Source of the DNA: a virus
Virus record (IMG/VR): IMGVR_UViG_3300042294_001443
Location: 1 to 31,643 of that record
Direction: 5' to 3' (one strand)
Length of the DNA stretch: 31,643 nucleotides
The stretch's first letter is position 1, and every line of letters begins with the position of its first letter. The position numbers and the translations under genes are program-made. The notes below the pieces were generated by a model that saw only the letters and a list, made by a program, of their open reading frames with translations, was not told the DNA's origin and did not search any database. This document shows, piece after piece, positions 411 to 20,439 of the stretch.

Positions 411-1945
411 AAAGCACGGCTCCAGGGGAGTGCGTTGCGGCGGATGCGGTCTATGCGGCGCCGTTTGATGAAGTCATCCATGTGCCCGCGCTGTGCTTCT
501 CTGCGCTGTGAAGCGGGGGCTGACCTGACCGCACGGTACGCGAGCGCCATTGCCATCGCAAGGTCGTCGTGTAGTCCTGACGGTGCTTCGGGTGTGACCT
601 TGCGGACTTCGAGCGCTCGTAGTTCTTGGAGTGTGGACTGGTCAAGACTGAAGATGATGCCAGCTTTAATGTGCTCGCGTAATGTTTCATACGCTTCCAG
701 CTTTGACTTGACTGTAGTAGTCCAGGGCTTGCCATCATGGTCGAGCCATACCTTCCTGTAGTGCAGCGCGTGTAACTCGCGCAGTACAACGTGACCGTGG
801 TTGTTTGACTCGCAAAGAACCAGGGCATCGTTGTACCGCTGTGCGACCGTGACTACCCGTGCAGCCCAGTCCACGGGGGACAAAGAGTTTGAGCGCTCAA
901 TGTATGCGGGCTGAAGGGTTTGCAGATTTACAACGCAAAGAGCGCTGTAGTCCCCGCCTGTTCCTCCCGCTACGTCCACGCCTATGACGTAGTGGGCTTC
1001 ATCGTCGGGCTCTTCGAACTCGCGCTTGGCTGAGTCGAACCAGACCTGCTCGATGTTGTCGAGGTCAGCCGGGTCGAAGTAGGTGTTGTCTCTCGAGAGG
1101 AAGGCGTCATCGAGACAGGCTGGGTACTCCCTGCGAAACTTGGCGACGCCCAGTGTCGCGATCTGCTTTCGCCGCCAGTTGAGCTGTGCATCATCCAGCC
1201 CGTAGCGGACGGCTAAGTCCTCCTCCTCCTGGGTACGGGTGAAGCCGGGAGGGATGTTGTCATCACGGTATGGCTCGTGCTCAAACCACCAGTAGGTGAA
1301 GACCTGCCAGCCGTTTTCCGGTGCGCCCTCGATCAACCTGTGGAACGCATCGCCCGGTGCGTTGACTGTGCTTTCGATGACCAGCGGTCCATCGCCCACG
1401 GTGCTGAGCGCCTGAGCTAAGACCTCATCGGGGTCGGTGTAGAAGGCGAACTCTGAGAGGTGGGCACCGCTGAACTCAAAGGAGCGTGTACCGCCACGGC
1501 CTCCTGTAGTGAACCCGCTGAAGCCAGCCTTGGTGTCAGCGAAGATGGTGTCGTCCGCGCTGTCCACATACAGGTCGCGCTGAAGTAGACGAGGCAACTC
1601 GCTTAGCCATCGACGGTCCATCTTGCGCAGGTTCTTGGCGGAGCGGTCGTGGAAGCTGAGGACTGCATACGTCGTAGGGTCGGCAGAAATAAATGCCTTG
1701 TGGAATTGCCACGCCCGAACCGAGGTGGAGATACCGACCTGTCGGGCCTTGATGACGATGACCCTGTTGTGGTTGTCCATCAACGCCCACAGCTTTTTCT
1801 GTGCAGCGTTTGGCGTGAACTCCTCGAATCTACCTGTCTGTTTGTTCTTAATCTTTAACAGTTTGCAGAACGTCAGCCGGTCCCGCAGCATCTGACGTAC
1901 AGCCGAGTGCATGTGGCCCGGGATGCTGGAGGGGACGTAGGTCAT
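407..1945 (-). CDS. terL: Terminase large subunit (packaging ATPase/nuclease)
   Basis: This is the DNA-packaging motor: an N-terminal ATPase pumps DNA through the portal and a C-terminal RNase H-like nuclease cuts it into headfuls or unit lengths. The 512-residue length is normal for the family. Walker A is KARQVGIST at about residues 66-74, with the classic Arg-Gln form. Walker B ends at Glu165 (AHLSEFAFY). The nuclease acidic residues are Asp324 (GVDVAGGTGGDYSA), Glu379 (LVLCESNNHG) and Asp460/461 (GLHDDLAMAMA). The start at 1945 overlaps the exonuclease stop as ATGA, and the stop overlaps the portal start in the same way, so the order exonuclease, terL, portal is translationally coupled. 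All catalytic residues appear intact, and the call is secure from motifs alone. Confidence 0.97.
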   Translation of the reverse strand: MTYVPSSIPGHMHSAVRQMLRDRLTFCKLLKIKNKQTGRFEEFTPNAAQKKLWALMDNHNRVIVIKARQVGISTSVRAWQFHKAFISADPTTYAVLSFHDRSAKNLRKMDRRWLSELPRLLQRDLYVDSADDTIFADTKAGFSGFTTGGRGGTRSFEFSGAHLSEFAFYTDPDEVLAQALSTVGDGPLVIESTVNAPGDAFHRLIEGAPENGWQVFTYWWFEHEPYRDDNIPPGFTRTQEEEDLAVRYGLDDAQLNWRRKQIATLGVAKFRREYPACLDDAFLSRDNTYFDPADLDNIEQVWFDSAKREFEEPDDEAHYVIGVDVAGGTGGDYSALCVVNLQTLQPAYIERSNSLSPVDWAARVVTVAQRYNDALVLCESNNHGHVVLRELHALHYRKVWLDHDGKPWTTTVKSKLEAYETLREHIKAGIIFSLDQSTLQELRALEVRKVTPEAPSGLHDDLAMAMALAYRAVRSAPASQRREAQRGHMDDFIKRRRIDRIRRNALPWSRAL

Positions 1946-2463
1946 GCAAACAGACCGAGCGCGTGTGCTACACGCCCAGCGAGGCGCGCGTCTTCCAGCG
2001 CGTGATGGTGGCTGCCGCTTCTGCCGGGGACCTGAAGATGACGGGCTGCGCTGTCGAGTGAGACGCGGCCTGTAGTCCTGCCCACGCGCTCAGCCGCAGC
2101 GCGCATGATGCACGGCCCGAAGTACCCCTTGGGCGCGAAGCCCATACGCCGCAGCATCTCCTCATCGAAGGAGAGGTTGTAGGCGTAGAGCATGGGGCGG
2201 TCGTGCCCGATCCACCATGCCCGCAGCCGCTCCGCAGCGGTCGCTGCCGGTGTGCCCTCTTTTACAAGCTGAAGGAGGCTGATGCCGTGGATGCGCTCAG
2301 CGTGGTGGTAGGTCGTGGTGTCGATGATGTTCGGCAATACCGTAAGATTAAAGGAGTCAAACTCGGTGCCATCTTTACTGAATAAAGCCACTGCCACCTG
2401 CACAGGCTCGGCGTATTTATTATCAGGTAAACCAGTTGTCTCAGTGTCGATGACGGCAAACAT
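1942..2463 (-). CDS. DEDDh-type 3'-5' exonuclease (DnaQ-like)
   Basis: This 173-residue protein is a stand-alone DnaQ-fold exonuclease. Exo I is DTETTG with Asp6 and Glu8. Exo II is NLSFDEEML with Asp100. Exo III is HHHALEDA with His153 and Asp158, giving the DEDDh set. Such enzymes remove 3' nucleotides and often proofread for a polymerase. It lies between the small and large terminase genes: 2 nt after the small subunit stop (AAGGA ribosome site upstream) and overlapping terL by ATGA. The genome's only visible polymerase is on the other strand and has no exonuclease domain, so this could be its trans-acting proofreader. A role in trimming DNA at packaging or degrading host DNA is also possible. 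The enzyme class is clear; the role is inferred. Confidence 0.93.
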   Translation of the reverse strand: MFAVIDTETTGLPDNKYAEPVQVAVALFSKDGTEFDSFNLTVLPNIIDTTTYHHAERIHGISLLQLVKEGTPAATAAERLRAWWIGHDRPMLYAYNLSFDEEMLRRMGFAPKGYFGPCIMRAAAERVGRTTGRVSLDSAARHLQVPGRSGSHHHALEDARLAGRVAHALGLFA

Positions 2464-2985: not shown

Positions 2986-3032
2986 CCACCTGCTAACACG
3001 GTCGTCAACTGAGGTTGACGATCTACAGGTGG
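2986..3032. repeat. Nested inverted repeats, operator-like
   Basis: The outer arms are CCACCTG (2986-2992) and CAGGTGG (3026-3032). The inner arms are TCGTCAAC (3002-3009) and GTTGACGA (3014-3021), separated by TGAG. The inner palindrome has the size and spacing of a dimeric regulator site. A 17/18 match to 3004-3021 occurs at 17642-17659 inside the giant ejection gene. Confidence 0.6.
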
Positions 3033-3060
3033 GCCGCTGGGCGGGGGCCCTGGGCGGCCC
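3031..3060. repeat. GC-rich inverted repeat
   Basis: GGGCCGC (3031-3037) pairs with GCGGCCC (3054-3060) across a 16-nt GC-rich spacer that itself contains GGGCCC. It directly abuts the nested repeats on its left and the first GTTAC pentamer on its right. It may be a transcription barrier between the divergent units. Confidence 0.45.
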
Positions 3061-3063
3061 GCC

Positions 3064-3310
3064 GTTACAGCCGGTACAGCTCCGTTACAGCCAGCGAATT
3101 TTTGGAGTTCTCGAGAAGGCCGATCCCTACTATGTCCTATGATACATATAACCCCTAAAGTGTGTGTGTAACGTCTGTAACACTAGTAACATGTAGGAGA
3201 GAGGGTTCGCCTCCCTATACCTATATCTCTGGCCAGCGGCCCCTGGACCTATAATGAACTCCGGTCTCCGAGATCTGGTAGGCTACCCGTTACGCGACGT
3301 TACACGTTAC
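3064..3310. repeat. GTTAC/GTAAC iteron cluster
   Basis: Eight pentamers occur in 247 bp. GTTAC starts at 3064, 3084, 3289, 3299 and 3306. GTAAC, the reverse complement, starts at 3168, 3177 and 3186 at an exact 9-nt period. A variant GGTACAG sits at 3073. Random expectation for either orientation is about one per 512 bp, so the cluster is clearly enriched. Short directly repeated sites near AT-rich DNA are typical of plasmid and phage origins or of arrays bound by one regulator. Confidence 0.6.
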
Positions 3311-3384
3311 GCCCTCGAGAACATCGATGAACAGCACGCTCTCAAGAAATCTTCATCACGGCTCAACTTTCTTGGGCGTGACGC

Positions 3385-3413
3385 TTGCCAGGGGAGTAGG
3401 CTTCGTATAGATT
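3385..3413 (+). promoter_or_regulatory. Sigma70-like early promoter
   Basis: TTGCCA at 3385-3390 and TAGATT at 3408-3413 are 17 bp apart, close to the bacterial consensus. TATAGA at 3406-3411 with a 15-bp spacer is an alternative -10. It points to the first early gene, about 50 nt downstream. The segment from 3402 resembles the sequence from 6382 upstream of the homing endonuclease gene, which suggests a shared early signal. Host polymerase would be needed, since no phage RNA polymerase is seen. Confidence 0.55.
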
Positions 3414-3464
3414 AGAACCATCAGCGGGCGACACCACAACACCCCGCCTGCTGAGGAGCCAGAG

Positions 3465-3926
3465 ATGACCAACAACACCGTCCCCTACCGCGCCGCTCTC
3501 AAGCTCGTTCGCGAGGCCAGCGTCGGCCTCTCCGACTGGGACGCTGAGACCCTGGAGATGTACATCGACGACCTCTACACGCGAGGACGGGAGGTTGGCG
3601 AGTACGCGCTGGAGCAGGCGTTCGATGTCTTCTTCACCTGCTACTACCGCGCCGGCTGGACCCTCATGGGTCGCGCCGTCAACCCGCCCGCCACTGAGGT
3701 CGAGGCTGAGGTGGACACCATCATTGAGCACGGTACTGACTGGAAGGAGTGCGACGACTTCGACTCCCTATTTCCCGCGACTGAGGAGTTCGTTCCTGGG
3801 GACGCCACTGTCTACGGTCCTGTAGACGAGGAGGAGGTCAACAGCTACATCTCTTGGCTGGAAGAGAGGTCATGGGAGTACACCGAGCCCAAGGTCAACT
3901 CCATCCACTCCGGCGCGAACGCTTGA
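3465..3926 (+). CDS. Very acidic early protein, unknown function
   Basis: This encodes 153 residues and is the first gene of the rightward block, with a GAGGAG ribosome site 6 nt before the ATG. I do not recognise a family. The protein is rich in Asp and Glu (about 32 acidic against about 10 basic residues by my count) and in Trp, Tyr and Phe, with acidic runs such as VEAEVDTIIE, ECDDFD and VDEEEV. High negative charge in a first-expressed phage protein recalls DNA-mimic anti-restriction proteins such as T7 Ocr, but there is no sequence match I can point to, so this is speculation. It is followed by a strong GC hairpin at 3941-3969, which may limit read-through into the polymerase gene or process the message. 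Confidence 0.75.
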   Translation: MTNNTVPYRAALKLVREASVGLSDWDAETLEMYIDDLYTRGREVGEYALEQAFDVFFTCYYRAGWTLMGRAVNPPATEVEAEVDTIIEHGTDWKECDDFDSLFPATEEFVPGDATVYGPVDEEEVNSYISWLEERSWEYTEPKVNSIHSGANA

Positions 3927-4005: not shown

Positions 4006-6336
4006 ATGACCACTCATAACATCTTCTCAGAGCTGATGCTAGGCATCAACGTTCTTTCCTTCGCGCGGCTGCTCAAAGATGCCGAGGCCAAGGCGGATGA
4101 CGCACAGCGGTTGGCGCTCCATGACCAGGGCGTCCGGCACTGGCCCATCATCGCAGCGATGAACGGCGGCACCATCAAGCTACACACGCGCGGCAAGCCG
4201 GATGGCGATGACCGGACGTACACCACAAAGCCGTTCCCGCTTCAGTCCCTCTCCAAAGACCTTGGCCTGCGCGCTGCGTTTACCAGCCCGCATGAGGGCG
4301 AGGTGCTGGTCTACGCGGACTGGCGAGCGAGCCACTGGCAGCTCCTCGCTTTCTACTCTGGCGACACCCAGCTTCAGGCGGACCTCCGCTCCGGTGACCT
4401 GTACAACAACCTCTTCCCCGGCCGCGACCGTAAGGCTGTAAAGGCTGGGCTCGCTACGCTCCTCAATGGAGGCGGTATGAACGCGCTGAAAAAGATGTTT
4501 GCTGAACCAGAAGCACGGCAGTTCTTGGCCGACGCCACCCAGTTGCTCGAGACACGCTGGGCCAAGGCGAACGCTTACCGCCTCCAGCTTCAGGCTGACG
4601 CGCTCGCAAACGGCTGGGCCGACGCTGACAAGGCCTACTCCGGGGCTGGCGTCGCGCTCATGCGCGTCGAAGCCAAGGCCCTACGCACGGCTCTGGAAGA
4701 GGTGCTTAGCGTAGGACTGGGCGTGCGCGTCCTACTCCCGATGCACGACGGCGTGCTTGTCTCCGCTCCGGCGGACAAGGCGGGTGAGGTGGCCGAGTGC
4801 CTGGGCTACTGCATGACCCTGGCAAGCACACTGTCTGACGATGAGGCTACGAACCACGCCGATGTTTGGGTAGACGTAAAGGTACAGGACTCCTGGGAAG
4901 GGCAGGAGTCCCAGCTACTCGGCAACCAGCTTCGCGCCGTCGCGCTGTCCTGTGTACAGGCGGACGATGCGGACAGGCTCGCTGTAGCTGCGGCCCTCAT
5001 GCCTAATGCCCTGGAGGGCCGGCTTCAGTCCCTCGCCCCCGCATCTGCGGAGGCACGGGCCATCAAGCTCGCGCTGCTGCGGCGGAAGGAGGCGGTCTCT
5101 TGGCTGCGCGCGGCCACGGTTAGCCAGGAGGCCTCGCTCATAGAGCTACCCCGGCCGGTCGCCAACTACTCCAACCTGTGCCGGCTTCTGCGGGAGGACT
5201 CCACGCTACCCCGGCTGCGCTTCAACCTGCGCTCGCTGTCGGCTGAGGTGGGAGGCGAACGGCTGGATGACAACGCCATCGGCCCAAAGTTTGTAGAACC
5301 GATCGAGAACCGCTACGGTTTCACCGGCATCTCGTTTGAGACCATCGGCCGGGCCGTGATGGATGTCGCACGGGAAGACAGCTATGACCCCATCAAGGAC
5401 TACTTCGACGGGCTGACCTGGGATGGAGTCAAGCGGCTGGACACTTGGCTTACCGCCTACACCGACGCCCGCGCGGGTACGTCGTCCGAGCCGGTGAAGA
5501 TGGCCGACATCTACGGGCGGAAGTGGTTCCTCTCCCTCGTGGCCCGCGCCTACTCGCCCGGCTGCAAGGTGGACTCTGTGCTCGTGCTACAGGGCCAGCA
5601 AAACATCGGCAAGTCCACGCTCTTCCGCGTCATCGCTCCGATGGGCTCATTCGCCGCCGTCGCCATCGACCCGGCGGACAAGGACATCGTGCGCCGCGCT
5701 TCGGCCTACGCTGTAGTCGAGTGGCCGGAGGCGACTGGCATGAGCAAGCGGGAACAGGAGGCGCTGAAGCAGTACTTCAGCGAGGGGATCGACCGCCTTC
5801 GCCTGCCCTACGGCAAGGCGGACATCGAGATCCCGCGGCGCGTCGTCTTCGGGATGACCTCAAACAGCAGCGACTTCCTGCGCGACCCTACAGGTTCCCG
5901 CCGCTACTGGCCTGTGACCGTAGAGGGCGTGGACATCGACGGGCTGAAACAGGTGGTAGACCAGCTGTGGGCCGAAGCCGTAGAGGTCTACCGCTCCAAC
6001 CCGGGACAGGACTACCTGTGGTGGCTCTCCCCTGAAGAGGAGGAGCTGCGGGAGGAGGGCGCTGCTGCGTACACCGAGGAGGACCCGTACTCCGAGGCCG
6101 TGCTGGCGGTGAGCGCGCGCAACAGGGGTGAGTTCAGCATGATTGAGTTGTTGAACTACCTCGACATCCCGCACAACCAGCGGATCCAGATGGGCCGCAC
6201 GCTCGGTGCATCCTGCCGGCGACTGGGCTTTGTCTCCGTACAGAAGCGCGTGCCCGCGCAGAAGAACGCTGTGCGCGTGTGGGTGTCAGCGTCGGCGGAA
6301 GAGGCAGAGCAGTCTGAGCCTAAGTTCTACCCGTAG
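4006..6336 (+). CDS. Family A polymerase palm fused to VirE-type helicase (candidate primase-polymerase-helicase)
   Basis: This 776-residue protein is probably the phage replicase. Residues about 45-295 hold a reduced family A polymerase core: a template-entry region ending PFPLQSLSKDLGLRAAF; motif A LVYADWRASHW with Asp105; motif B with Arg142, Lys146 and Asn154-Gly155; and motif C MHDG with His247-Asp248. Residues about 380-660 match the VirE P-loop ATPase family: a WDGVKRLDTWL lead-in (472-482), Walker A GQQNIGKST (530-538), the acidic VVEWPEA (571-577), and TSNSSDFLRDPTGSRRYWPV (618-637), which carries the sensor Asn and Arg pair. The C-terminus looks like a small winged-helix region. There is no exonuclease or full thumb domain. 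VirE helicases are normally attached to primases, so a polymerase palm in that place suggests self-priming replication. An AAGG precedes the ATG closely. A hairpin at 6347-6377 follows. Confidence 0.88.
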   Translation: MTTHNIFSELMLGINVLSFARLLKDAEAKADDAQRLALHDQGVRHWPIIAAMNGGTIKLHTRGKPDGDDRTYTTKPFPLQSLSKDLGLRAAFTSPHEGEVLVYADWRASHWQLLAFYSGDTQLQADLRSGDLYNNLFPGRDRKAVKAGLATLLNGGGMNALKKMFAEPEARQFLADATQLLETRWAKANAYRLQLQADALANGWADADKAYSGAGVALMRVEAKALRTALEEVLSVGLGVRVLLPMHDGVLVSAPADKAGEVAECLGYCMTLASTLSDDEATNHADVWVDVKVQDSWEGQESQLLGNQLRAVALSCVQADDADRLAVAAALMPNALEGRLQSLAPASAEARAIKLALLRRKEAVSWLRAATVSQEASLIELPRPVANYSNLCRLLREDSTLPRLRFNLRSLSAEVGGERLDDNAIGPKFVEPIENRYGFTGISFETIGRAVMDVAREDSYDPIKDYFDGLTWDGVKRLDTWLTAYTDARAGTSSEPVKMADIYGRKWFLSLVARAYSPGCKVDSVLVLQGQQNIGKSTLFRVIAPMGSFAAVAIDPADKDIVRRASAYAVVEWPEATGMSKREQEALKQYFSEGIDRLRLPYGKADIEIPRRVVFGMTSNSSDFLRDPTGSRRYWPVTVEGVDIDGLKQVVDQLWAEAVEVYRSNPGQDYLWWLSPEEEELREEGAAAYTEEDPYSEAVLAVSARNRGEFSMIELLNYLDIPHNQRIQMGRTLGASCRRLGFVSVQKRVPAQKNAVRVWVSASAEEAEQSEPKFYP

Positions 6337-6346
6337 TAGAAACTTC

Positions 6347-6377
6347 GGGTGCGCAGGCAACTAATGCTTGCGCACCC
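6347..6377 (+). terminator. Stem-loop after replicase gene
   Basis: GGGTGCGCA (6347-6355) pairs perfectly with TGCGCACCC (6369-6377). A G-T wobble and GCA/TGC extend the stem to 13 bp around the loop ACTAA. It begins 10 nt after the replicase stop and ends 4 nt before promoter-like sequence. No T-run follows, so termination strength is uncertain. Confidence 0.6.
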
Positions 6378-6381
6378 TCGA

Positions 6382-6441
6382 TTCGTATGGTACATCAGAA
6401 TCATGAGCGGACACCCACTCCAACCCGCTCAAGGAGCCGCG
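6382..6441 (+). promoter_or_regulatory. Second early promoter/leader, similar to the one at 3402
   Basis: TTCGTAT followed by AGAA, CAT, AGCGG and an ACACC-type C/A-rich leader repeats the plan seen at 3402-3440. TATGGT at 6386-6391 is a plausible -10, but no good -35 is seen at 17 bp. It ends with AAGGAG at 6431-6436, 5 nt before the endonuclease ATG. Confidence 0.4.
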
Positions 6442-6996
6442 ATGAAGATCAACAAACTCCCTCCGCTACCCCTCCTCCGCGAACTGTTCGTCGCAGACCC
6501 GGAGGCTGGCACCCTCGCCCGCAAGTCCAACGGCCGCACCTTCGGCCCGCTCTCAGGCGCGACTATTAAGGGGCGCATCTACAGCGTCTCGCGCATCCTG
6601 TACGCGATGTACACAGGCCGCGACCCGGGGCCTAATTTCGTAGACCACATCAACCGCGACCGCACCGACAACCGGCGCTGCAACCTTCGCGCGCTGACAG
6701 CCGCCGAGAACTCGCAGAACAAGCGGTCGTACAGCAACACTGGCTACCGAGGGGTGCATATGCGTCCCCTCAAGGACGGCACGCCGGTGTACAGGGTACA
6801 GCTCCACCGCAAAGTGCCCCAGATTGACGGCTCTCTGAAGCCTACGACGTACCACGGCGGTAATTACCGCGACCTAGAAGATGCCATCCGTGCGGCGGAA
6901 GAGCTGTACGTCCGGTTTGGGACAGACCTGTTCGTGCCTGTTTGCGAGTTCCACGCACCTGAAGTAACTCCTGAACTCCCCCGTGAGGCTTGCTAA
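6442..6996 (+). CDS. HNH-AP2 homing endonuclease
   Basis: This is a free-standing HNH homing endonuclease of 184 residues. The HNH core is DHINRDRTDNRRCNLR at residues 68-83, with His69, Asn77 and Asn81. It is followed by an AP2-type DNA-binding domain from about 98 to 160 (NTGYRGVHMRP to the AAEELY helix). The start at 6442 is chosen because AAGGAG lies 5 nt upstream and the protein then begins MKINKLPPLPLLRELF, the usual N-terminus of this family; a start at 6349 would fall inside the replicase terminator hairpin. Such enzymes nick or cut DNA lacking the gene and spread it, and often sit next to replication genes, as here. The stop overlaps the next start as TAATG. Confidence 0.92.
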   Translation: MKINKLPPLPLLRELFVADPEAGTLARKSNGRTFGPLSGATIKGRIYSVSRILYAMYTGRDPGPNFVDHINRDRTDNRRCNLRALTAAENSQNKRSYSNTGYRGVHMRPLKDGTPVYRVQLHRKVPQIDGSLKPTTYHGGNYRDLEDAIRAAEELYVRFGTDLFVPVCEFHAPEVTPELPREAC

Positions 6997-11052: not shown

Positions 11053-14000
11053 TCACCGAGAAGGCTGCTTAGCTCTAAGCGCGCGCTCCTGCTCACCCAG
11101 CGCCCGCATGACCGCGGCCTCCGGGGACTGCTCACCCATCGGGGTCTCGAGACCTGTGGCGAACCCGAAGGTACTGGGCAGCCCACGCTTCTTAGGGTCA
11201 ACGAAATCCTCAACACCGTAGGTCAGCCCGAGCTTGGTGTAGTCCGTGGTCGTGCGCTGGAAGCCAAGGAGCTGTAGCGTGGACAGGAAGCGGAGGAACC
11301 GCGCCTGATCGGCCGCGCTCTCAAAGCGGTACTCAGTCTTCTGGCTACCAGGGACGGTAGGGTCCGCCGCGGTCAAGCGACCGGGCGTCATCTTCTCAGG
11401 CTCAGTGACAGCCTTGATGTTGAACTCACCCTTCATCCAGGGCCACAGCTTGTCCGGGCTGCTCTGGACCGCGTAGGCAACCCACTCGTCCGGCAGCTTG
11501 CCCCCTCGCCCGCCGCCCTGTGCCTCGAAGTCGGCCATCACCATAGAGATGAGCGGGGACAGGTTCTCGTCTGCGATGGCCCTTGCCACCTCACCCGGCG
11601 GCGCGTCTGCTGCCCCGGCGCGCAGCGCCCAGGCCGCGAACTGCACGGCGTCCGAGTACATCTCGACCGACGGCGTGACCGGGCCGTAGACGCGCGCGGA
11701 GGCGCTGTTGTCGAAGATAAAGGAGCTTGGGAAGGGGATGCGAACCCGCTGGTAGTCGGCCTGCATCTCCTCATCCATCGCCTTCGACAAGTCTCTGTGG
11801 GCCAGGAGGAGGCGGTTGAAGCTGGCAGGGTCGCGGGTCAGCGCCTCCAGTGTCTCGCGCATCATGGCTTCGCGGAAGGCGAGGAACATGATGTACTTGT
11901 TTAAGTTAAACGCAGGGTTGCTCGTGACACGAGACTTCCCGTAGTCAAGCATAGAAGCCCGCGCGAGTTGCCCCGCTTGGTCCTCTGTCATCCCCGCCTT
12001 CAGCGCGCTGGCAAACACGTTTTGCCGGATGGCCTTGTCGGTAGCGTTTGCCGCGTACTGGAAGATGCCCGTCCTACCGGGGTCGAGGTTGCGGAGGAGG
12101 TACTGTCGGAGCGCAGGTGACTTGACTCCTTCAGCGGTGAGGCGTGCATCCCGAAGAAGTTCTTGCGCGTACTGCTGGGAGAACTCAACTCCACCCGCGC
12201 TGATGTTGATGGAGTTGCGCTCCACGGCCTCAAGGAACTCAGCCCGGGCCCACTGCCTGCCTGTCTGCGAAGTGAACAGCACCTCGTCAGCACGGCCCGG
12301 AGTGATGGTGTCCAGTAGCGGGCGTCGCAGGAAGTCAGGCACCTGCGCGGCCACCTGCCTGCCCACCTCGGCGGTCTGCGTCATAGGGCCGAGGGTGCCG
12401 GGAGCGAGCCGGATGGCACCCGCTGCGCCCAGCGTCGTAGCGAGGATGAACGGCGCGGTGGCGAGGTTCATGCCGAGGTAGCGAGTGTTAGGCGCGGGAA
12501 GAGGAATGGGCGTCCCGTCTTCCGTCGTGTACAGGTAGTACCCGCCGGCCAGCATCCCTCCCGCGGCCACGGTGCGCGGGTAGGCGAGGAGCTGCGAGAG
12601 GTTCAGAAGGGCGTACTCAGCGCCAGCCTTGGCATCGCCCCCAAGTGCGCGCTGTAGCTTCTCAGCCTTCATCAGCGCGTCAAGGTTCTCGCCCAGCTTC
12701 CCATCTCGAGAAGCCGCTTGGAGCTTAGACAGGCTGTCCACAAAGTCCTGACCAGCCACAAGGAAGCGAGGGTCGCGCGGGTTTAGTCCCTCGACGGAGA
12801 CAACGATGTCCTGCCGCGAAGCCCGTAGGTCTGGAGCCCAGCCGTAAGCGCGGGCGTTCTGCTGCATCTCATCAACCGCCGGGAGCACAAAGGACTCCAT
12901 CGCGTTCTGGAGCAGCGCACGGCGCATGACCTCGACGACTTCACCCTTACGCGCCGACATCTCGCCCTCGGTCATAGGCCGTAGGGCGACCGGCTCTTCT
13001 GGCGCGCGAGGCACGGGCCCCATCTCGGTAGCCGGAAGCTCCATCGCACGCGGCTGGTACACAGGCCCGAGTCGTGGCTCCTCTGCGGGAAGCAGAGACT
13101 TCTGTGCGCGACGTATGGCGTCGTAAAGAGCCTGGTCATCAAGGTTCTCGAACACCCCCTTGTTGCGTGCGCCAGCTGTGGTGATGCCCTCGTAGAGCCT
13201 CAGCAGGGCCTCAGTCGTCGCCTTCTTCTCGAAGAACAGAAGGTTTAGCTGCGGGTTGTCTAGAGCATCTGCGGTACTAAACAGGAGTTCAGGGTTCTGC
13301 GTGCTCTCCGCAAGCATCTGCCCATAGACGTGCTTCACCAGTTCAGCGCGCGCCTTCGGGTTGAGGTTGCGGTACGAGCGCACGGTGATGTTGTCGAGCT
13401 GGCGCGTGAACGGACCCGGCTGCGGCGGGTTGCGGAGAGCGCGTGCCAGCTTCTCATCAAGCTCCCGCACACGCGGACCCATACGCGCGGCCTGCTCCAG
13501 TAGCGCGGGCTCCTGCTCGGCTCTCTTACCGGCACGCTCCAGCCTCCAAAGGAGTTCTTGCAACGGCAGCACGGTGTCGTTGTAGTAGTCCAGCGCGGCA
13601 GTAACAGCGTCGTTGTACGCCTTCTCTGCCTTAGTCAGCCGATCGTAGAACCTGTTGGCTTCGTTCTGAATCATGCGGATGCGGCTACGCAGCATCTCAA
13701 CTGCCTTCTCCGCCTCCTTCAAGTCAGACTTAAGCTGCTTGTCCTTGGGCTTAGACGCGAGCTTAGCCGCCCGTCTGTCCCGCTCACGGATGGCCTGTCC
13801 GAGCCGCGCCTGTGCGTCTTCAATTTTATCTCTGAAGGTCTTACCGGGGAACTCAGACAGCTTCGCCTCAGCCTGCTCAACCTCTTTGCGGAGGCGCACC
13901 TGCTCCTTCTCGGTCTGCTTGATGGCCTTTGTCTGCTCAGCGATGTCTTCCTTAATCTTCTTTATGCGAGGAAGAACACGGGTCTTGACCTCTTCCGAGA

Positions 14001-17000
14001 CGGTCGCCTTAGCGAACCCGCGCTCTATCTCTTCCAGCCGGGCGGCCTGCTCTTCCACGCTGTACGACGGCACCCTGAACGGAGTCCCAGGGATACGCGC
14101 TCGGACCTGCTCCAGAGTCGGAGTACCAACAGGCGGGGCGCCCGCGCCGATGAACTCAGGCCTTCCCCCGAAGTACGGGTCAACAAGGAAGGTGCCGTAA
14201 GTGGACTGCGCGCGACGGATGGCCGCGAGCGTGTCGGGCGGTAACGCTTCTCGAGCCGTGCCCGGTTGCGCTCCGATGCCAGCCAGCCCGTTGACTACGG
14301 CTGCACGGGCGCTGACCACCGCGTCAATCTCCCTGACCGCGCGGAAGCCACCCTCGGCTGCGGTGAGCGAGGGTGCGAGGTCAGTCACCATCCACGGGTT
14401 GTCGTTGATCAGCGTGTCCACCGCCTGTGCGAGTGCGGCCTGTCTGTCCTTGCCCATCGCCCACGCGGCGAGGGTCTGGAACACAGCGTCGTCAGTGCCT
14501 TTAAACTGGCCCTTGGTCAGCGCTGTAAGGATCTCGCCCCCGGGGAACTTGGCCTGCTGTGCCCCGCGGAGTTCGAGCGTCGGGTTGTCATCGCGGATGA
14601 GGCGAAGAACTTCTCTCACCTCTCCAGCCGCGATGGGGCGGAAGTTGTCCCCGACCTTTACATACTTAAAGAAGGCCGTGCTCCCAGGAGGGTTGATGAG
14701 GGTAGCGTAAACTTCTTTGCCGAAGAACGACTCAAGGATAGTCGCCCAGTTGTTCTCAAGCACGGGGTCGAGGAAGGACTGTAGCGCGAGGTCTTCAGCC
14801 CCTTCAAGCGCCGCTCCCTTTGCGATGAGTTCGCCCAGCGCCTCCTGGCTGGTGCCCGCGCGCGCTTGGTAGGCGAGGAGGGACATCGCCTCTTCGCGCG
14901 GTACGCCCTGTGCGATGAGCGCGTCTACCTGCGTGGTCAGGCTCTCACGCGCGGCCTTGAGGTCGCGGGCGGTACGCCTGTTTAGTACCGTGTTGAACGC
15001 TATCTCCGGGTTCGGGATGCGCGCGGCAGCGTCCCGCACCTCCCGCTGGAAGTTGTCGGGGATGCTGGAGATGGTGTTCTCAGCGGTACGGAGCGCGGTC
15101 TCCAGACCCACCGGCGTCTGCGAGAAGGCCACGCGGTCAAGCTCTTTGCCGAACTCAATGAGCTTGTCGGACTTGAACTGCTTGCCTGCCTTCACCGTCG
15201 CGGAACCAACGAGGTTGCGCCCGATGGCACCGGCCTGGAACGGGAGCGAGAGGAAGGACGGTTCCCGCGCCTCTGCCAGCGCCCGTGACTGCCGCGGTGC
15301 AACCTCGCCCGTAGTCTCCAGCGCAGTCTCAAACAGGCCGAGGGAAGCGCTGGGTACACGCGCCTGCTCTGTCTGTCTGCCAGCGAAGACCGCCTCCATC
15401 GCGCGGTCGCCAAGGACACGACGGTAAGCCTGCGTGAGAAGCGCGTCCTCAAGCGCCTGATGCTGCGCCGGAGCCAGTGCCTCGCCCCGGCTCAAAGCGC
15501 CCACGATGGACTGCTTCAGCGTAGAGCGGCGAACAGCCTCAGCCCCGCCCAGCGCCTCGATGGCCTTGTCCGGCGCAAGCTCCCACTGGTACAGCACGAC
15601 GCGCTTGCCATCAACCGGCGGGCCGATGATGGGACGCCGCTCGTACTGCCGCATCTCTTCACCGACGCTGGCGATGTCAGCGCGGGAGAGCTTCTGGCGA
15701 GGGGTCATGAGCGTGCTGGTGACGAACACCAAGTCGCTCGGGATGACGTTCTCCAGAGTAGCCTGCACACCTCGAGAAGCTGCACCAATGGCTGCTTCCC
15801 GGTAAACCTCCGGGGCCCTCTTGATGTCCGCTGGTGTGGGGACAGTCCCTCCCACACGCCGGAGGTAGCTGCCAGCGAACGGGCCGCGGAAGATGCGCTG
15901 CTGTACCGTGCCTCGCGGAAGCTCCCCGGGAACCTCGACGGCCTCCACTACACGCCGGCCGCTGTCAGCCAGCGTCTCCCCGAACTCGTGCATGGACTTG
16001 TAGATGGGCGCGCCTGCCCGCACGGGCATGTAAGGCAGTACGTCTACATCGCCGTACTGAGAGAAGATGTCGGCAAAGCCCAGGTCCTTTACGGACTCTT
16101 CGCCCATCGCCTTGCGGGCCAGTGCGACCAGAGGTGCATTAGGTCTAGCTCTACCGCTAAGCTGTTCAGAGATGAGAATAGAGTCGTAGTACGGCTTGGC
16201 TTGAGGGCCGTACTTCGGCGTGCCAAGCGCGAACGGGTCGGCCAGGAGGGCGAAGATGCGGGCTGCCTTGACCTCATCTGGTATGTCGGTCTTACCGATG
16301 ATGGCGTCAATCTCAGGCTTATGCACCCTGTAGCGGAAGCGCTGAAGGGCCTCCTGCATCTCCGGCACGCGGACGAACGGCGCGTTGTCGGGCTGCGCCG
16401 CGATGCCCATGTCTGCGAGGAACGCCCGGCCAGAGGTGCTGTCACCCGCGATGCGCCGGAGGTCGCCCACAGTGTCGATGGCTCCAGACTGAACAGCCTG
16501 AACCATCGTGTAAGGGGTCATTACGTCTTTGGCGATGGCGTCGCTAACCGCGCGCTGTGCGGTGCTGATGTCCGTCAGCAGGTCGATGTCCGGCTTGTCC
16601 GGCATGCCGTCCATCAAGTCCTGCACGATACGCAGGTGACGGACTCTCTTGCTCATCTCGACCGGGTGCTGGATAGCCTCACCCGCCAGTTCCCCAACCC
16701 GCGCGGCGTCATCAATCAGGCCTACGAGTTTAGCGCTGGGCACCTTCCCGGCCTGTGCCGCCACCGCGTTTGCCGCGCCTACGAAGCGGGAAGTGGTCGC
16801 CACACCCTTACCTGTACCGCGCGCGACCTTGGCCGCTGCGGACAGCGGGCCTACGCCGTAGACCATCTCCAGCCCGGCGCCGAAGGCAATGGGGGCGTAG
16901 CGCGCCGCGGTTGTCAGCGCCGTCTCCTCCATATAGGGCCAAGTGCCCTGCTCATTGTTCTGGATGGAGTAGTCAACAAGGTCTTCTGTGTACCCGTCAA

Positions 17001-18354
17001 TGGAGTAAAGCTCGTCTCCGAGGAACCTGCCCTTTGCCAGAGAGACGGCCACGTCGCCCAGGTACGTCTCAGTCTCCGAGGCCCCGCGAACGGCGGTCGG
17101 GTCAATGGGCGTGGCCTTCTGCCGGTTCATGCCCGAGAAGGGGACGGGGATAGCGGTGGGGCCTACCGTTCCGGTCAACGCCTTCTCAGCCGCGGCCCGG
17201 TCTACGCCTGTTGCCTCTGCCGCGTCTACAAGGAACTTGTGCGCCTTGTAGGCGAACTGGTTCTCATCAACAGGGCGGCCCTGGTCATCGGTATCGTAGA
17301 ACAGCGGGAGGCCAAGGACTGCCTCGTTTACCAGCGTGGAGACAAGCCCCGTGCTGCGAAGAACAGCGGTAAGCGGTGTCTCGAGAACAGCGCCAGTGCC
17401 GGGGTCAATGTCGGTCAGGATGTCTTCGAAGAACGAGTCCGCCCGTTCCGCGATCTCCCTTCGTACCTCATCCTCGTACTCGGGCCGGTACATGAGGACT
17501 TCGGGAATCTCTTGAGCCGCAAGCTCACGCTCTACCGACCGGACCTTCCGCCGCTCAAGCGCCTCCTCTGGCGTCATTACTACCTGACGCGCAAGTGACT
17601 CCCGCATCAGCTCGTAGTCGCTGGGCTTCCGTCCCTCGATGGTCAACTCAGGTTGACGAAAGTCAATCCGCGACTCGCGGAAGAACGGCGGTACAGGCAG
17701 GTACTCCCCGAGTCCGCCCACACCGCGGGAGGTGGGCTGCCCTTCTACGTCCACGCGCCGCTGAAGCACGGCACTAACGTCGGCGTCGGCTTTGTCTGCG
17801 GCTTCAGAAATAGAGAAGCCCTCACGAATATACTCAAGCTCTTTTTCTTTACGGAGATTAGCCAGCCGGTCACGGAGGGAGAAGGTCTCAGTGGGTAGGT
17901 CGAACTGTCTACCCGTGACAGGCGCGCCCTCTTGGAAGGCGACCTCCGCCTCCGGGTACTCGGTGAAGGACGGGAAGACGGGCTCGCGCGGTGCGCGCTC
18001 CTCAAGCTGAACATTGAAGAGCGGGACAGTACCCGTGCCCGGGGCGAACTGGATGTCCTCACCGGGGCTCTCGCCCAGGTCAATGTCCGCCGTGGACATA
18101 CCGATGAAGCGGGATGAAGCCGGCCTGAACCCAGGCTCCCCGGGCCCCGGCATACCCGGAGGCGGGCCGGGTTTCGGGGAGACGTAGGGCTCAGGTAGCG
18201 GGCCTACAAGGCCGCGCTGTTGAAGCAGGTCGAGAACCTGCGGGCCGCTGGTCGGCTTGATGATCCCCTGCTGGCGTAGAATCTCGACAACATACTCGTC
18301 GGTAAAGTTGTCAGGAAAGACGTAGGCTTGACCATCAACGATGTAGCGGCCCAT
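11053..18354 (-). CDS. Giant internal virion/ejection protein, 2433 aa
   Basis: This is the largest gene, filling 23% of the window. It begins MGRYIVDGQAYVFPDNFTDEYVVEILRQQG, a short N-terminal unit like those of other phage ejection proteins, then a Pro-rich linker (about residues 58-80). Hydrophobic stretches lie at about 475-505, 1924-1943 and 1960-1985. A long charged coiled coil runs from about 1455 to 1640. Order and size make it the counterpart of T7 gp16, which enters the cell with DNA and spans the envelope, but it is almost twice as long and I see no lytic transglycosylase motif. GAGGTGG precedes the ATG, 9 nt after the previous stop. A long open frame on the opposite strand within it is a shadow. 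Confidence 0.85.
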   Translation of the reverse strand: MGRYIVDGQAYVFPDNFTDEYVVEILRQQGIIKPTSGPQVLDLLQQRGLVGPLPEPYVSPKPGPPPGMPGPGEPGFRPASSRFIGMSTADIDLGESPGEDIQFAPGTGTVPLFNVQLEERAPREPVFPSFTEYPEAEVAFQEGAPVTGRQFDLPTETFSLRDRLANLRKEKELEYIREGFSISEAADKADADVSAVLQRRVDVEGQPTSRGVGGLGEYLPVPPFFRESRIDFRQPELTIEGRKPSDYELMRESLARQVVMTPEEALERRKVRSVERELAAQEIPEVLMYRPEYEDEVRREIAERADSFFEDILTDIDPGTGAVLETPLTAVLRSTGLVSTLVNEAVLGLPLFYDTDDQGRPVDENQFAYKAHKFLVDAAEATGVDRAAAEKALTGTVGPTAIPVPFSGMNRQKATPIDPTAVRGASETETYLGDVAVSLAKGRFLGDELYSIDGYTEDLVDYSIQNNEQGTWPYMEETALTTAARYAPIAFGAGLEMVYGVGPLSAAAKVARGTGKGVATTSRFVGAANAVAAQAGKVPSAKLVGLIDDAARVGELAGEAIQHPVEMSKRVRHLRIVQDLMDGMPDKPDIDLLTDISTAQRAVSDAIAKDVMTPYTMVQAVQSGAIDTVGDLRRIAGDSTSGRAFLADMGIAAQPDNAPFVRVPEMQEALQRFRYRVHKPEIDAIIGKTDIPDEVKAARIFALLADPFALGTPKYGPQAKPYYDSILISEQLSGRARPNAPLVALARKAMGEESVKDLGFADIFSQYGDVDVLPYMPVRAGAPIYKSMHEFGETLADSGRRVVEAVEVPGELPRGTVQQRIFRGPFAGSYLRRVGGTVPTPADIKRAPEVYREAAIGAASRGVQATLENVIPSDLVFVTSTLMTPRQKLSRADIASVGEEMRQYERRPIIGPPVDGKRVVLYQWELAPDKAIEALGGAEAVRRSTLKQSIVGALSRGEALAPAQHQALEDALLTQAYRRVLGDRAMEAVFAGRQTEQARVPSASLGLFETALETTGEVAPRQSRALAEAREPSFLSLPFQAGAIGRNLVGSATVKAGKQFKSDKLIEFGKELDRVAFSQTPVGLETALRTAENTISSIPDNFQREVRDAAARIPNPEIAFNTVLNRRTARDLKAARESLTTQVDALIAQGVPREEAMSLLAYQARAGTSQEALGELIAKGAALEGAEDLALQSFLDPVLENNWATILESFFGKEVYATLINPPGSTAFFKYVKVGDNFRPIAAGEVREVLRLIRDDNPTLELRGAQQAKFPGGEILTALTKGQFKGTDDAVFQTLAAWAMGKDRQAALAQAVDTLINDNPWMVTDLAPSLTAAEGGFRAVREIDAVVSARAAVVNGLAGIGAQPGTAREALPPDTLAAIRRAQSTYGTFLVDPYFGGRPEFIGAGAPPVGTPTLEQVRARIPGTPFRVPSYSVEEQAARLEEIERGFAKATVSEEVKTRVLPRIKKIKEDIAEQTKAIKQTEKEQVRLRKEVEQAEAKLSEFPGKTFRDKIEDAQARLGQAIRERDRRAAKLASKPKDKQLKSDLKEAEKAVEMLRSRIRMIQNEANRFYDRLTKAEKAYNDAVTAALDYYNDTVLPLQELLWRLERAGKRAEQEPALLEQAARMGPRVRELDEKLARALRNPPQPGPFTRQLDNITVRSYRNLNPKARAELVKHVYGQMLAESTQNPELLFSTADALDNPQLNLLFFEKKATTEALLRLYEGITTAGARNKGVFENLDDQALYDAIRRAQKSLLPAEEPRLGPVYQPRAMELPATEMGPVPRAPEEPVALRPMTEGEMSARKGEVVEVMRRALLQNAMESFVLPAVDEMQQNARAYGWAPDLRASRQDIVVSVEGLNPRDPRFLVAGQDFVDSLSKLQAASRDGKLGENLDALMKAEKLQRALGGDAKAGAEYALLNLSQLLAYPRTVAAGGMLAGGYYLYTTEDGTPIPLPAPNTRYLGMNLATAPFILATTLGAAGAIRLAPGTLGPMTQTAEVGRQVAAQVPDFLRRPLLDTITPGRADEVLFTSQTGRQWARAEFLEAVERNSINISAGGVEFSQQYAQELLRDARLTAEGVKSPALRQYLLRNLDPGRTGIFQYAANATDKAIRQNVFASALKAGMTEDQAGQLARASMLDYGKSRVTSNPAFNLNKYIMFLAFREAMMRETLEALTRDPASFNRLLLAHRDLSKAMDEEMQADYQRVRIPFPSSFIFDNSASARVYGPVTPSVEMYSDAVQFAAWALRAGAADAPPGEVARAIADENLSPLISMVMADFEAQGGGRGGKLPDEWVAYAVQSSPDKLWPWMKGEFNIKAVTEPEKMTPGRLTAADPTVPGSQKTEYRFESAADQARFLRFLSTLQLLGFQRTTTDYTKLGLTYGVEDFVDPKKRGLPSTFGFATGLETPMGEQSPEAAVMRALGEQERALRAKQPSR
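17642..17659. repeat. Copy of control-region palindrome inside giant gene
   Basis: GTCAACTCAGGTTGACGA differs at one base from 3004-3021 (GTCAACTGAGGTTGACGA). Its arms GTCAAC and GTTGAC are intact with a 4-bp centre. Here it encodes Arg-Gln-Pro-Glu-Leu-Thr on the minus strand. It may be a second binding site for the same regulator. Confidence 0.4.
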
Positions 18355-18363
18355 CAGTCCACC

Positions 18364-20439
18364 TCACTCAAACTTGCCGGTAACCGGGTTGAACACCTTA
18401 TCCCCAGTTCCGCCTGGGGGTTTGGGCCCCCGGGGCCCCCGGGGTAACGGCTTCCCGCCATCGAGAACCTGCTCGATGGACTGGAAGGCCCGGGAGCCTG
18501 GAGCAGCTTCGCCAGTGTAGCGCCCGTCTTGGAAGATGAGGTAGCCGTTAGCCACCTTCTTGTATGCGTAACGCGGGTCTGACGGGTCAACCTGTGCGCC
18601 AAGGCGAGGGTCCAGGGATCCCCCGGTCAGCGTTACGTCCGGCTCAGGTGCCGGTGTAACGGGTAACGGCGGTACAGCAGGAGGTGCCGGAGGAGGCGGG
18701 ACTATATCCTTGGCCGGCTCCTCCTTCATATATGTAACCCCTACTTCTTCTTCTTCTACTTTAGGGGTTACAGCCGTTACAGGGGGAGGCCTACCTGTCA
18801 GCCGGCTCTCATCCAGCGTGGACTCCTTCATGCGCTGCGCGTGGAAGTATGCGCCGTAATACTCCAGGGCCTCGCGCCGCTTGATGGGGTCGTTCTCGTA
18901 CCGCTTGGTGACCTGCTGCGCGAACTGCTGGAACTGAGGGTAGCGCATCACGTCAGCTTCGATGAGCTGCTGCGCGAACTTCTCAACGGGCGACTCAGGC
19001 TCAACACGCCCGTCAACGCGCACGAACCGCTTCATCGCGCCCGGTAGTGCGTCTGCGGCCAGAGGACCACCAGCCATAGTGGCGGCATCCAGAGCTTCCT
19101 GCGTGACCTCCGGCATCGCGATGTCCTGAAGTGCCCGACGGGCCGCAACCTGCGCGGGGCTCTCGACGCGACCCTCAATGCCTTCGACCTTCTGTCTGAC
19201 ACCGGCACGCTCCTCAAGTAGCTGAAGGTAGGTGGTGTCGTAGAACGGCGCGGCACCGCGGGGCAGGTTCTCTACCCGTGCGCCCTTGTCATAGGCGGCC
19301 TTGGCCTTGGAGAACTCCTCTTCACCGGCGAACTCGTCTACGGTCGCTCTGCCGTCATCAGCTAAAGCGGTTGTGTAACGCTGTAAAAACAGTGCTTCTT
19401 CTTCGGTCAAAGGCTCTGCGATGCCCAGTTCTTTGCGGGCCATCTCCATCGCCTTCTTCTTTGCCGCGGTCTCCTCAGAAGCAGAGACCTTACCGTCCCC
19501 GTCAGCGTCCTTCTGAGAGAGGCTGAGCCCGCCAAGAATCTCCCGGCCACGCTCCTCAAACGGCTGCACCCCAACCCCGGCTTGTCCGAGGTAGGCGCGC
19601 CGCTGCTCGTTGCGCTCGTTCTCTACGACGGTCAGTGGCTCAACACCGGCAACAGCCGCCGAAGTTAGGAACCCGTCGGTGTCGTAGGTATTGTCAATAG
19701 CGGCCATAATCTCAGCGCCCTGTGTGCTGAGCTGACCCGCCTCGGTCTGGAAGCTGGAAGGGAACCGACGCCGAAGCTGGTAGAACAGGTCAGTCGCCGC
19801 CCGCTTCCGCTGGTACAGCGTAGAGGCGTCCTGCAAACCAGCCAGCTGGCGCTGGTTTTCGAAGAACGCCTGCTCAAGCTCAAGAGCGAGGTTGGTGGGT
19901 GCGCCTCTCCCAGCACCGTATAGGCGGTCCATCTTGGACACGAAGTCCGCTTCAAACAGCCCGTACTGGCGCGGCTTACGGTCGGCCTCCGCCATCAGGT
20001 CTTCGACAATACCGAGACCCTTCTGACCTGCCTCGGCACGGTTGATCTCATTCGCCGTCATCCCGCGAATAAAGTCTAGAGAATCCCCAGCGCCACCGCC
20101 CCCAGCACCGCCACGACCGCGACCACCAGCAAGTCCACCGCGGCCAGTACCAGACGTTGCCAGCTTCGTGCTTCCACTTGGGCCTGCTCCAGTCTCGCGG
20201 TAACGCGCGAGAAGGCTGTCTAAGTTCTCAAGTCTGCGCTCAAGCATCTCCTGCTTCTGCGCCGCTTCAGCCGCCTTGTACTTCTCGTCAGCAAGAAGTT
20301 CGTTGAACATCTCGCGCTGAAGAACAGACGGGTGGTAGCGGTAGAAGAGCTGCTGAGCGTAGCTGTAGTTCTGCTGCTCCCCCGGCGAGAGGAAGGACTG
20401 GTTGACGAAGGAGGGAAGCTGGGAGCGCGGAAGAGGCAT
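18364..20439 (-). CDS. Middle ejection protein with EF-hand loop, 691 aa
   Basis: This is the second of three consecutive internal virion genes and the positional counterpart of T7 gp15 (747 aa). It begins MPLPRSQLPSFVNQSFLSPG and has a charged helix at about 45-80, a Gly/Arg-rich linker at about 97-118, mostly helical sequence to 580, a Pro-rich stretch near 580-625, and a collagen-like RGPRGPKPPGG near the end. Residues 311-322 (DADGDGKVSASE) are a perfect EF-hand calcium loop, with Asp at 1, 3 and 5, Gly6 and Glu12. A degenerate second loop (ALADDGRATVDEF, 358-370) follows, as in an EF-hand pair. Calcium could control its shape inside and outside the cell. GAGGG lies upstream of the ATG. 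Confidence 0.8.
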   Translation of the reverse strand: MPLPRSQLPSFVNQSFLSPGEQQNYSYAQQLFYRYHPSVLQREMFNELLADEKYKAAEAAQKQEMLERRLENLDSLLARYRETGAGPSGSTKLATSGTGRGGLAGGRGRGGAGGGGAGDSLDFIRGMTANEINRAEAGQKGLGIVEDLMAEADRKPRQYGLFEADFVSKMDRLYGAGRGAPTNLALELEQAFFENQRQLAGLQDASTLYQRKRAATDLFYQLRRRFPSSFQTEAGQLSTQGAEIMAAIDNTYDTDGFLTSAAVAGVEPLTVVENERNEQRRAYLGQAGVGVQPFEERGREILGGLSLSQKDADGDGKVSASEETAAKKKAMEMARKELGIAEPLTEEEALFLQRYTTALADDGRATVDEFAGEEEFSKAKAAYDKGARVENLPRGAAPFYDTTYLQLLEERAGVRQKVEGIEGRVESPAQVAARRALQDIAMPEVTQEALDAATMAGGPLAADALPGAMKRFVRVDGRVEPESPVEKFAQQLIEADVMRYPQFQQFAQQVTKRYENDPIKRREALEYYGAYFHAQRMKESTLDESRLTGRPPPVTAVTPKVEEEEVGVTYMKEEPAKDIVPPPPAPPAVPPLPVTPAPEPDVTLTGGSLDPRLGAQVDPSDPRYAYKKVANGYLIFQDGRYTGEAAPGSRAFQSIEQVLDGGKPLPRGPRGPKPPGGTGDKVFNPVTGKFE
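18632..18782. repeat. Second GTTAC/GTAAC cluster, in coding sequence
   Basis: Six pentamers start at 18632, 18656, 18663, 18734, 18767 and 18776, the last two 9 nt apart. GTTACAGCCGTTACAG at 18767-18782 matches 3064-3079 at 15 of 16 bases. ACTTTAGGGGTTA at 18758-18770 is the exact reverse complement of 3149-3161. The cluster encodes a Pro/Glu-rich, poorly constrained part of the ejection protein. Confidence 0.45.
18733..18772 (-). repeat. 11-bp perfect inverted repeat in ejection gene
   Basis: TGTAACCCCTA (18733-18743) and TAGGGGTTACA (18762-18772) are perfect inverted arms around an 18-nt CTT-rich spacer. On the minus strand the loop is a GAA run encoding Glu. It could form an RNA hairpin within the late message or act as a paired protein site. 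Confidence 0.5.

Follow-up and report, generated by a model that had tools for sequence, protein, structure and literature searches.

A single open reading frame in the window, which is a whole IMG/VR virus record of 31,643 bases, encodes a family A DNA polymerase palm joined to a VapE/VirE-type helicase, and in this nearly complete genome we recognised no other polymerase or primase. We favor the possibility that a Pol I-derived palm stands in for the primase module of a VapE primase-helicase and synthesises primers, with the host polymerase doing most of the elongation, and give this explanation an even chance of being correct. The first-pass annotation of this DNA had observed a palm and a VirE helicase in one frame, and profile matches, motifs and relatives all confirm it. 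Its overall interpretation survives in part: the family A palm, the VirE helicase, the primase position and the lack of another recognisable replicase stand, and kinship with TV-Pol and a one-protein replisome lack support in the form proposed. The coordinates of the features discussed below are collected in Table 1.

Table 1. Features of the fusion gene and its surroundings, with the basis for each assignment.
Feature	Position	Strand	Basis
776-aa fusion, family A polymerase palm/fingers and VapE helicase	4006..6336	+	Open frame, 776 codons without a stop
Family A palm/fingers domain, residues about 36-300	4111..4905	+	tblastn to actinophage Pol I; hhalign 1.9e-13, 5e-13; alignment
Motif DDRTYT, R70	4207..4224	+	By-eye alignment with the template-contacting Arg (E. 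coli R668) of the beta-hairpin
Motif A DWRASHWQ	4318..4341	+	Catalytic D105; H110 at the E710 steric-gate position, Q112 at R712
Motif B / O helix GRDRKAVKAGLATLLNGGG	4420..4476	+	R142, K146 kept; A150 at F762, N154 at Y766
Motif C PMHDGV	4738..4755	+	H247-D248 kept; G249 at the Pol I E883 position
VapE/VirE P-loop helicase, residues about 390-700	5173..6105	+	PF05272 E 2.1e-60; motif positions
DnaQ-like DEDDh 3'-5' exonuclease, own gene	1942..2463	-	phrog_192 1.5e-22; RNase_T above cut-off
Intergenic region between divergent gene blocks	3009..3464	.	8 GTTAC/GTAAC motifs
Small conserved ORF just upstream of the fusion gene	3465..3926	+	No family match
Perfect 11-bp RNA hairpin, about 37 nt before the start codon	3941..3969	+	Kept in three genomes; z -2.9 to -3.5

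The fusion is also found outside the window. L007, an IMG/VR contig from another metagenome, carries it complete and in one frame at 75% identity, and a second IMG/VR contig, L006, carries the palm end, with 89% identity over the palm, up to residue 342, where the contig itself ends. The same fusion in the independent contig L007 rules out chimeric assembly as its source. The palm evolves under purifying selection, with Nei-Gojobori dN/dS values of 0.11 (L006) and 0.21 (L007); the value for the helicase part was 0.19 and that for the whole protein against L007 was 0.25. A search of IMG/VR for more fusions with other palm or helicase parts returned just these two contigs and distant helicases, no fusion was found in the genome collection and no record among the deposited phages and plasmids matched 80% of the fusion protein, all of these scans relying on exact peptides or BLAST, which distant fusions would escape.

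With regard to the helicase half, Pfam placed the PF05272 VapE-like domain at residues 469-689 with an E-value of 2.1e-60, far over the cut-off, and the match covers profile positions 3-215 of 217, which is nearly full length and takes in Walker A, Walker B and the arginine finger. This part also matched PHROG DNA helicases (E 3e-62) and the VapE structure PDB 7pds (E 1.5e-27). All of the motifs could be located: Walker A at residues 530-538 (GQQNIGKST), Walker B at 569-575 (AVVEWPE), the sensor TSN at 618-620 and the Arg finger at 629-635 (TGSRRYW). Judged by its sequence, then, the helicase half is a complete, canonical VapE/VirE P-loop helicase, for which unwinding and ring assembly are predicted. 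The first-pass annotation had described it as complete and had proposed the comparison with PF05272 as a check.

Pfam DNA_pol_A matched the whole protein below threshold (E 3.3e-4; 20 bits, cut-off 34) and the palm domain alone likewise (E 1.9e-5). A tblastn search of 50,697 phage records with residues 1-303 gave matches almost exclusively to actinophage DNA polymerases (best E 3e-4), collinear over residues about 34-271. When a three-member alignment of the palm was compared by hhalign with four actinophage Pol I that had been aligned without the window protein, the E-value was 1.9e-13, and 5e-13 after realignment; with the reversed palm it was about 0.1, and with unrelated proteins of the same genome 0.36-0.47. 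One further hhalign match was discarded as circular because the alignment that it hit had included the window protein. Given the strength of these matches against the weak controls, the homology of the palm to family A Pol I is real and, on profile evidence, its nearest kin are the actinophage DNA polymerases I. In Thermobifida P318, Arthrobacter Atuin, Microbacterium Mabodamaca and Mycobacterium Jabiru the homologous palm and fingers cover residues 33-271 of the window protein, and the catalytic Asp pair and RxxxK are common to both. The actinophage enzymes differ in having 587-621 aa, an exonuclease-type N-terminus plus thumb, and no helicase fusion. In the fusion protein the aligned palm begins after about 35 residues, the thumb being reduced to this N-terminal stretch, and the N-terminal 3'-5' exonuclease domain is absent. 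The protein thus lacks most of the thumb and the exonuclease-like domain expected of family A; forms reduced in this way, such as CCPol and TV-Pol, continue to be classed with the superfamily. AlphaFold2, run from the three-sequence alignment, gave a pLDDT of about 38 each for the palm (345 aa) and the whole protein, too low for the models to serve the first-pass check that D105 and D248 lie side by side.

Motifs A, B and C lie where the first-pass annotation had placed them, at D105, R142/K146 and H247-D248. The metal-binding aspartates of motifs A and C and the RxxxK of motif B that mark family A are therefore present, and D105, D248, H247, R142, K146 and R70 are invariant in all three genomes (window, L006 and L007) despite a dS of 0.6-0.9, with the equivalence of R70 taken from a manual alignment that has one residue of gap uncertainty. 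Other positions have changed. In the E. coli Pol I numbering, residues E710, R712, F762, Y766, N845, Q849 and E883 correspond to H110, Q112, A150, N154, G215, M219 and G249, respectively, where the equivalences outside motifs A and C come from alignments at about 25-29% identity. Each of these replacements is identical in the three genomes, among which the codons of H110, A150, N154 and others vary synonymously. The family A signature of E710, F/Y/L at 762 and Y766 is accordingly lost from all three, whereas the actinophage Pol I fit it, carrying Glu at 710, Phe or Tyr at 762 and Tyr at 766. This signature is typical and not strictly defining, as T7-type enzymes of the superfamily differ from it too. 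At position 762, viral enzymes commonly carry Tyr, Phe or Leu (PMC6302109). E. coli Pol I excludes ribonucleotides through E710 and F762 (PMC7581432) and, since His110 and Ala150 have replaced both of these residues, it is possible that the palm accepts NTPs.

The first-pass annotation considered the genome nearly complete, and this is borne out by the portal gene, which is split by the contig ends (1-418 and 30531-31643, minus strand), its N-terminal part lying on the left and its C-terminal part on the right. The portal gene of L006 is unbroken, and comparison with it puts the part absent from the window record at 63 codons (about 189 nt). The simplest view of the record is thus a genome of ~31.8 kb that is circularly permuted and nearly complete. 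The earlier concern that the missing portion might encode a conventional polymerase and primase is largely settled, as only ~189 nt are absent and these fall inside the portal gene; a conventional replicase in the missing part was rejected on these grounds and a hidden one is unlikely. A PHROG scan of the 30 main ORFs revealed no second polymerase, primase, replicative helicase or SSB, and no family match for an OB-fold/SSB partner. To this extent the first-pass statement that no other such protein is recognisable holds, but a DnaQ-like exonuclease gene is present. As many of the ORFs have no match at all, a replication factor may have escaped recognition.

The usual classification sorts primases into two unrelated families, DnaG and AEP. 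A third source, recognised only recently, is the family A polymerases, among which CCPol-MP is the single case with biochemical proof (PMC7581432). Four features argue that the palm may act as a primase: (i) its position in the protein; (ii) the lack of any other recognised primase; (iii) a reduced thumb, as in CCPol and (iv) the altered gate residues. With regard to position, the VapE/VirE primase-helicases of phages and SaPIs (PF05272) resemble the fusion protein in their helicase half, in their similar size and in having an N-terminal catalytic domain, which is a Toprim or AEP primase there and a Pol I palm here. Among VapE proteins of like length, that of Pseudomonas phage U5 (737 aa) has a Toprim_3 front end; L009 (792 aa) has DUF3854 at the same N-terminal place, which we read as Toprim-like, and the front ends of L010 and L011 appear AEP-like by eye, with no Pfam match there. 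The statement in the first-pass annotation that VirE helicases are usually fused to primases agrees with these primase-type domains at the position of the palm. Following the argument made in PMC2579912, a swap at the same protein position suggests a like function for the swapped front ends. The protein also shows that VapE primase-helicases exchange their catalytic front end.

There is also precedent for the partnership itself. The genomes of Corynebacterium phage Stiles and phage NatCom_19828 each have a Pol I gene and a distinct VapE gene that lie one gene apart, and as near neighbours the two are already partners elsewhere. CCPol-MP is a proven DNA primase in which a shortened-thumb family A polymerase works with a D5-type helicase (PMC7581432; short thumb PMC10061031), and by analogy the palm plausibly works like CCPol or TV-Pol. 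A plausible scenario begins with unwinding of the phage DNA by the VapE ring, which probably assembles at an origin. The palm, tethered to the helicase and nearly without a thumb, would then initiate short primers on the strand thus exposed, at a two-metal site formed by D105 and D248, with K146 and R142 holding the triphosphate during priming. The palm might accept NTPs, or NTPs and dNTPs alike. The host replicase would then take over most of the elongation, leaving the palm possibly some limited synthesis, and the separate DEDDh exonuclease might trim or proofread.

Not everything in the comparison with CCPol points towards priming. CCPol-MP and Cch2 of SCCmec likewise combine a thumb-reduced family A polymerase with a helicase, but they are separate proteins, and CCPol retains both E710 and F762, works with dNTPs alone and depends for priming on MP, an OB-fold partner that binds ssDNA (PMC7581432). 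In PolA-SSB primases the OB-fold partner is encoded between polymerase and helicase, which here share one chain. Furthermore, the changes at the Y766, N845 and Q849 positions could mean that catalysis is weak or lost. We also put forward, tentatively and as a somewhat unlikely outcome, a narrower proposal in which a palm that lost the ribonucleotide gate and most of its thumb became an NTP-using RNA or mixed primase in a single chain with its helicase, with an origin separate from those of TV-Pol and CCPol. The fusion suggests a repair-type polymerase remodelled into a starter enzyme for the copying of a viral genome, in a phage of about 31.8 kb with an apparently very small replication kit. 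As a one-chain version with altered sugar-gate residues, it would offer a direct test of how few changes make a repair or replication polymerase a primer-starter.

The first-pass annotation went further in asking whether the fusion is a one-protein replisome. This overreaches, as the thumb is almost absent, no processivity factor or SSB was recognised, the DEDDh exonuclease is a separate protein and the substitutions suit a replicase no better than they suit an enzyme that makes primers. Such a replisome, in which the palm is the main DNA polymerase and the fusion, together with the exonuclease gene, replicates the genome alone, is unlikely. It would account for the lack of another polymerase in a nearly complete genome, for the homology of the palm to replicative phage Pol I and for the conservation of a proofreading-type exonuclease gene in all three genomes. 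Precedent for a Pol A-helicase fusion comes from the Pol polyprotein of TOSV (3173), in which Pol A and a P-loop helicase also share one phage polypeptide (PMC7689252); this 1606-aa protein has the reversed order, with a DUF927 helicase at the N-terminus, and differs further in its full exonuclease and active thermostable polymerase. Against a replicase, besides the near absence of the thumb and of a recognised clamp or SSB, are the altered gate and O-helix residues, the location of the exonuclease gene in the opposite (terminase) gene block and the fact that the host replicase serves many phages of similar size.

It is distinctly unlikely that the palm is dead or nearly dead and is kept for binding DNA or primer-template, guiding the helicase to origins or forks. 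The replaced Pol I positions, from E710 through E883, could be taken in this way, and palm-like relatives that lack one or both Asp have been described (Rice 2023; PMC10061031). However, the residues that are invariant despite synonymous divergence include both Asp, His247, R142, K146 and R70, and retention of the metal ligands is unexpected if catalysis has been lost.

The first-pass annotation also suggested that the protein may be a phage relative of TV-Pol, and membership at first looked likely from shared residues. The palm shares two features with the TV-Pols of Microcystis phage Ma-LMM01 and a Polaromonas plasmid, HDG in motif C and, in motif A, a His at D+5; with the Ma-LMM01 protein it also shares NG in motif B. 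The residues of the TV-Pol minimal core are present (R70 of the beta-hairpin, D105, D248, fingers D131 and R142/K146). The TV-Pol family, including Sputnik V13, similarly has a minimal family A core without a fused nuclease and a viral-type helicase, which in Sputnik V13 is fused as here (PMC2579912). TV-Pols are associated with a D5-like helicase and have no nuclease linkage; the palm is fused to a VapE helicase, and the DEDDh gene lies 1.5 kb away in the other gene block. Profile comparison gave membership no support: hhalign E-values between the palm and the two TV-Pols were 0.08-0.37, against 1.7e-7 between the TV-Pols themselves and 5e-13 between the palm and actinophage Pol I. We have taken Ma-LMM01 gp030 to be the TV-Pol meant in PMC2579912, as it adjoins a transposase and has the motifs. 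A genome scan with the Polaromonas TV-Pol, made to widen the sample, returned no matches. We therefore regard it as very unlikely that the palm is a diverged true TV-Pol (Iyer 2008) related by common descent, with a VirE in place of a D5 helicase; with a sample of two proteins such kinship is unsupported rather than excluded.

The Gln at D+7 of motif A (Q112 in the palm) is also found in T7-type RNA polymerases, a lead for an RNA polymerase-like enzyme that serves transcription and not replication. Loss of the ribonucleotide gate and the suggestion that divPolA2 may be an RNA polymerase (PMC11348598) would fit such an enzyme, but the palm is fused to a replicative helicase, its closest kin are DNA polymerases and no promoter-recognition domain was recognised, making this highly improbable. 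The divPolA1 and divPolA2 proteins resemble the palm as diverged phage Pol A whose thumb is shortened or absent and which have no active exonuclease, and differ in that they coexist with a regular polymerase and that a helicase fusion is not described for them (PMC11348598). Membership of the palm in divPolA2 was tested by hhalign and gave no match.

To return to the proposed primase-helicase, the neighbouring genes offer some candidate partners. The exonuclease gene, which overlaps the terminase gene by 4 nt, has complete active-site motifs in all three genomes, and its product is a possible proofreading or primer-processing partner. The 153-aa product of the small upstream ORF is a candidate accessory protein: this ORF is separate from the polymerase-helicase in the window and in L006, and in L007 (3549-6176) its N-terminal domain is joined in frame, through the hairpin, to the polymerase-helicase. 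The hairpin shows two compensated pair changes in L007 and, as it has no T-run, it is not an ordinary terminator. The intergenic region is a candidate origin or operator. The matching regions of the relatives hold 9 of 12 GTTAC/GTAAC motifs in L006 (4133-4570) and 11 of 15 in L007 (2979-3548). This reading is a lead, since the motif was chosen after looking and a second cluster of 9 copies (18380-18776) lies inside the gene at 18364-20439 on the minus strand. Elsewhere in the genome, a 2433-aa ORF (11053-18354), nearly a quarter of the total length, is without a convincing family match and is probably a virion protein. Directly downstream of the fusion gene (6349-6996) lies an HNH endonuclease gene (HNH_3, phrog_99), which by eye is also present in L007 (6296-6922).
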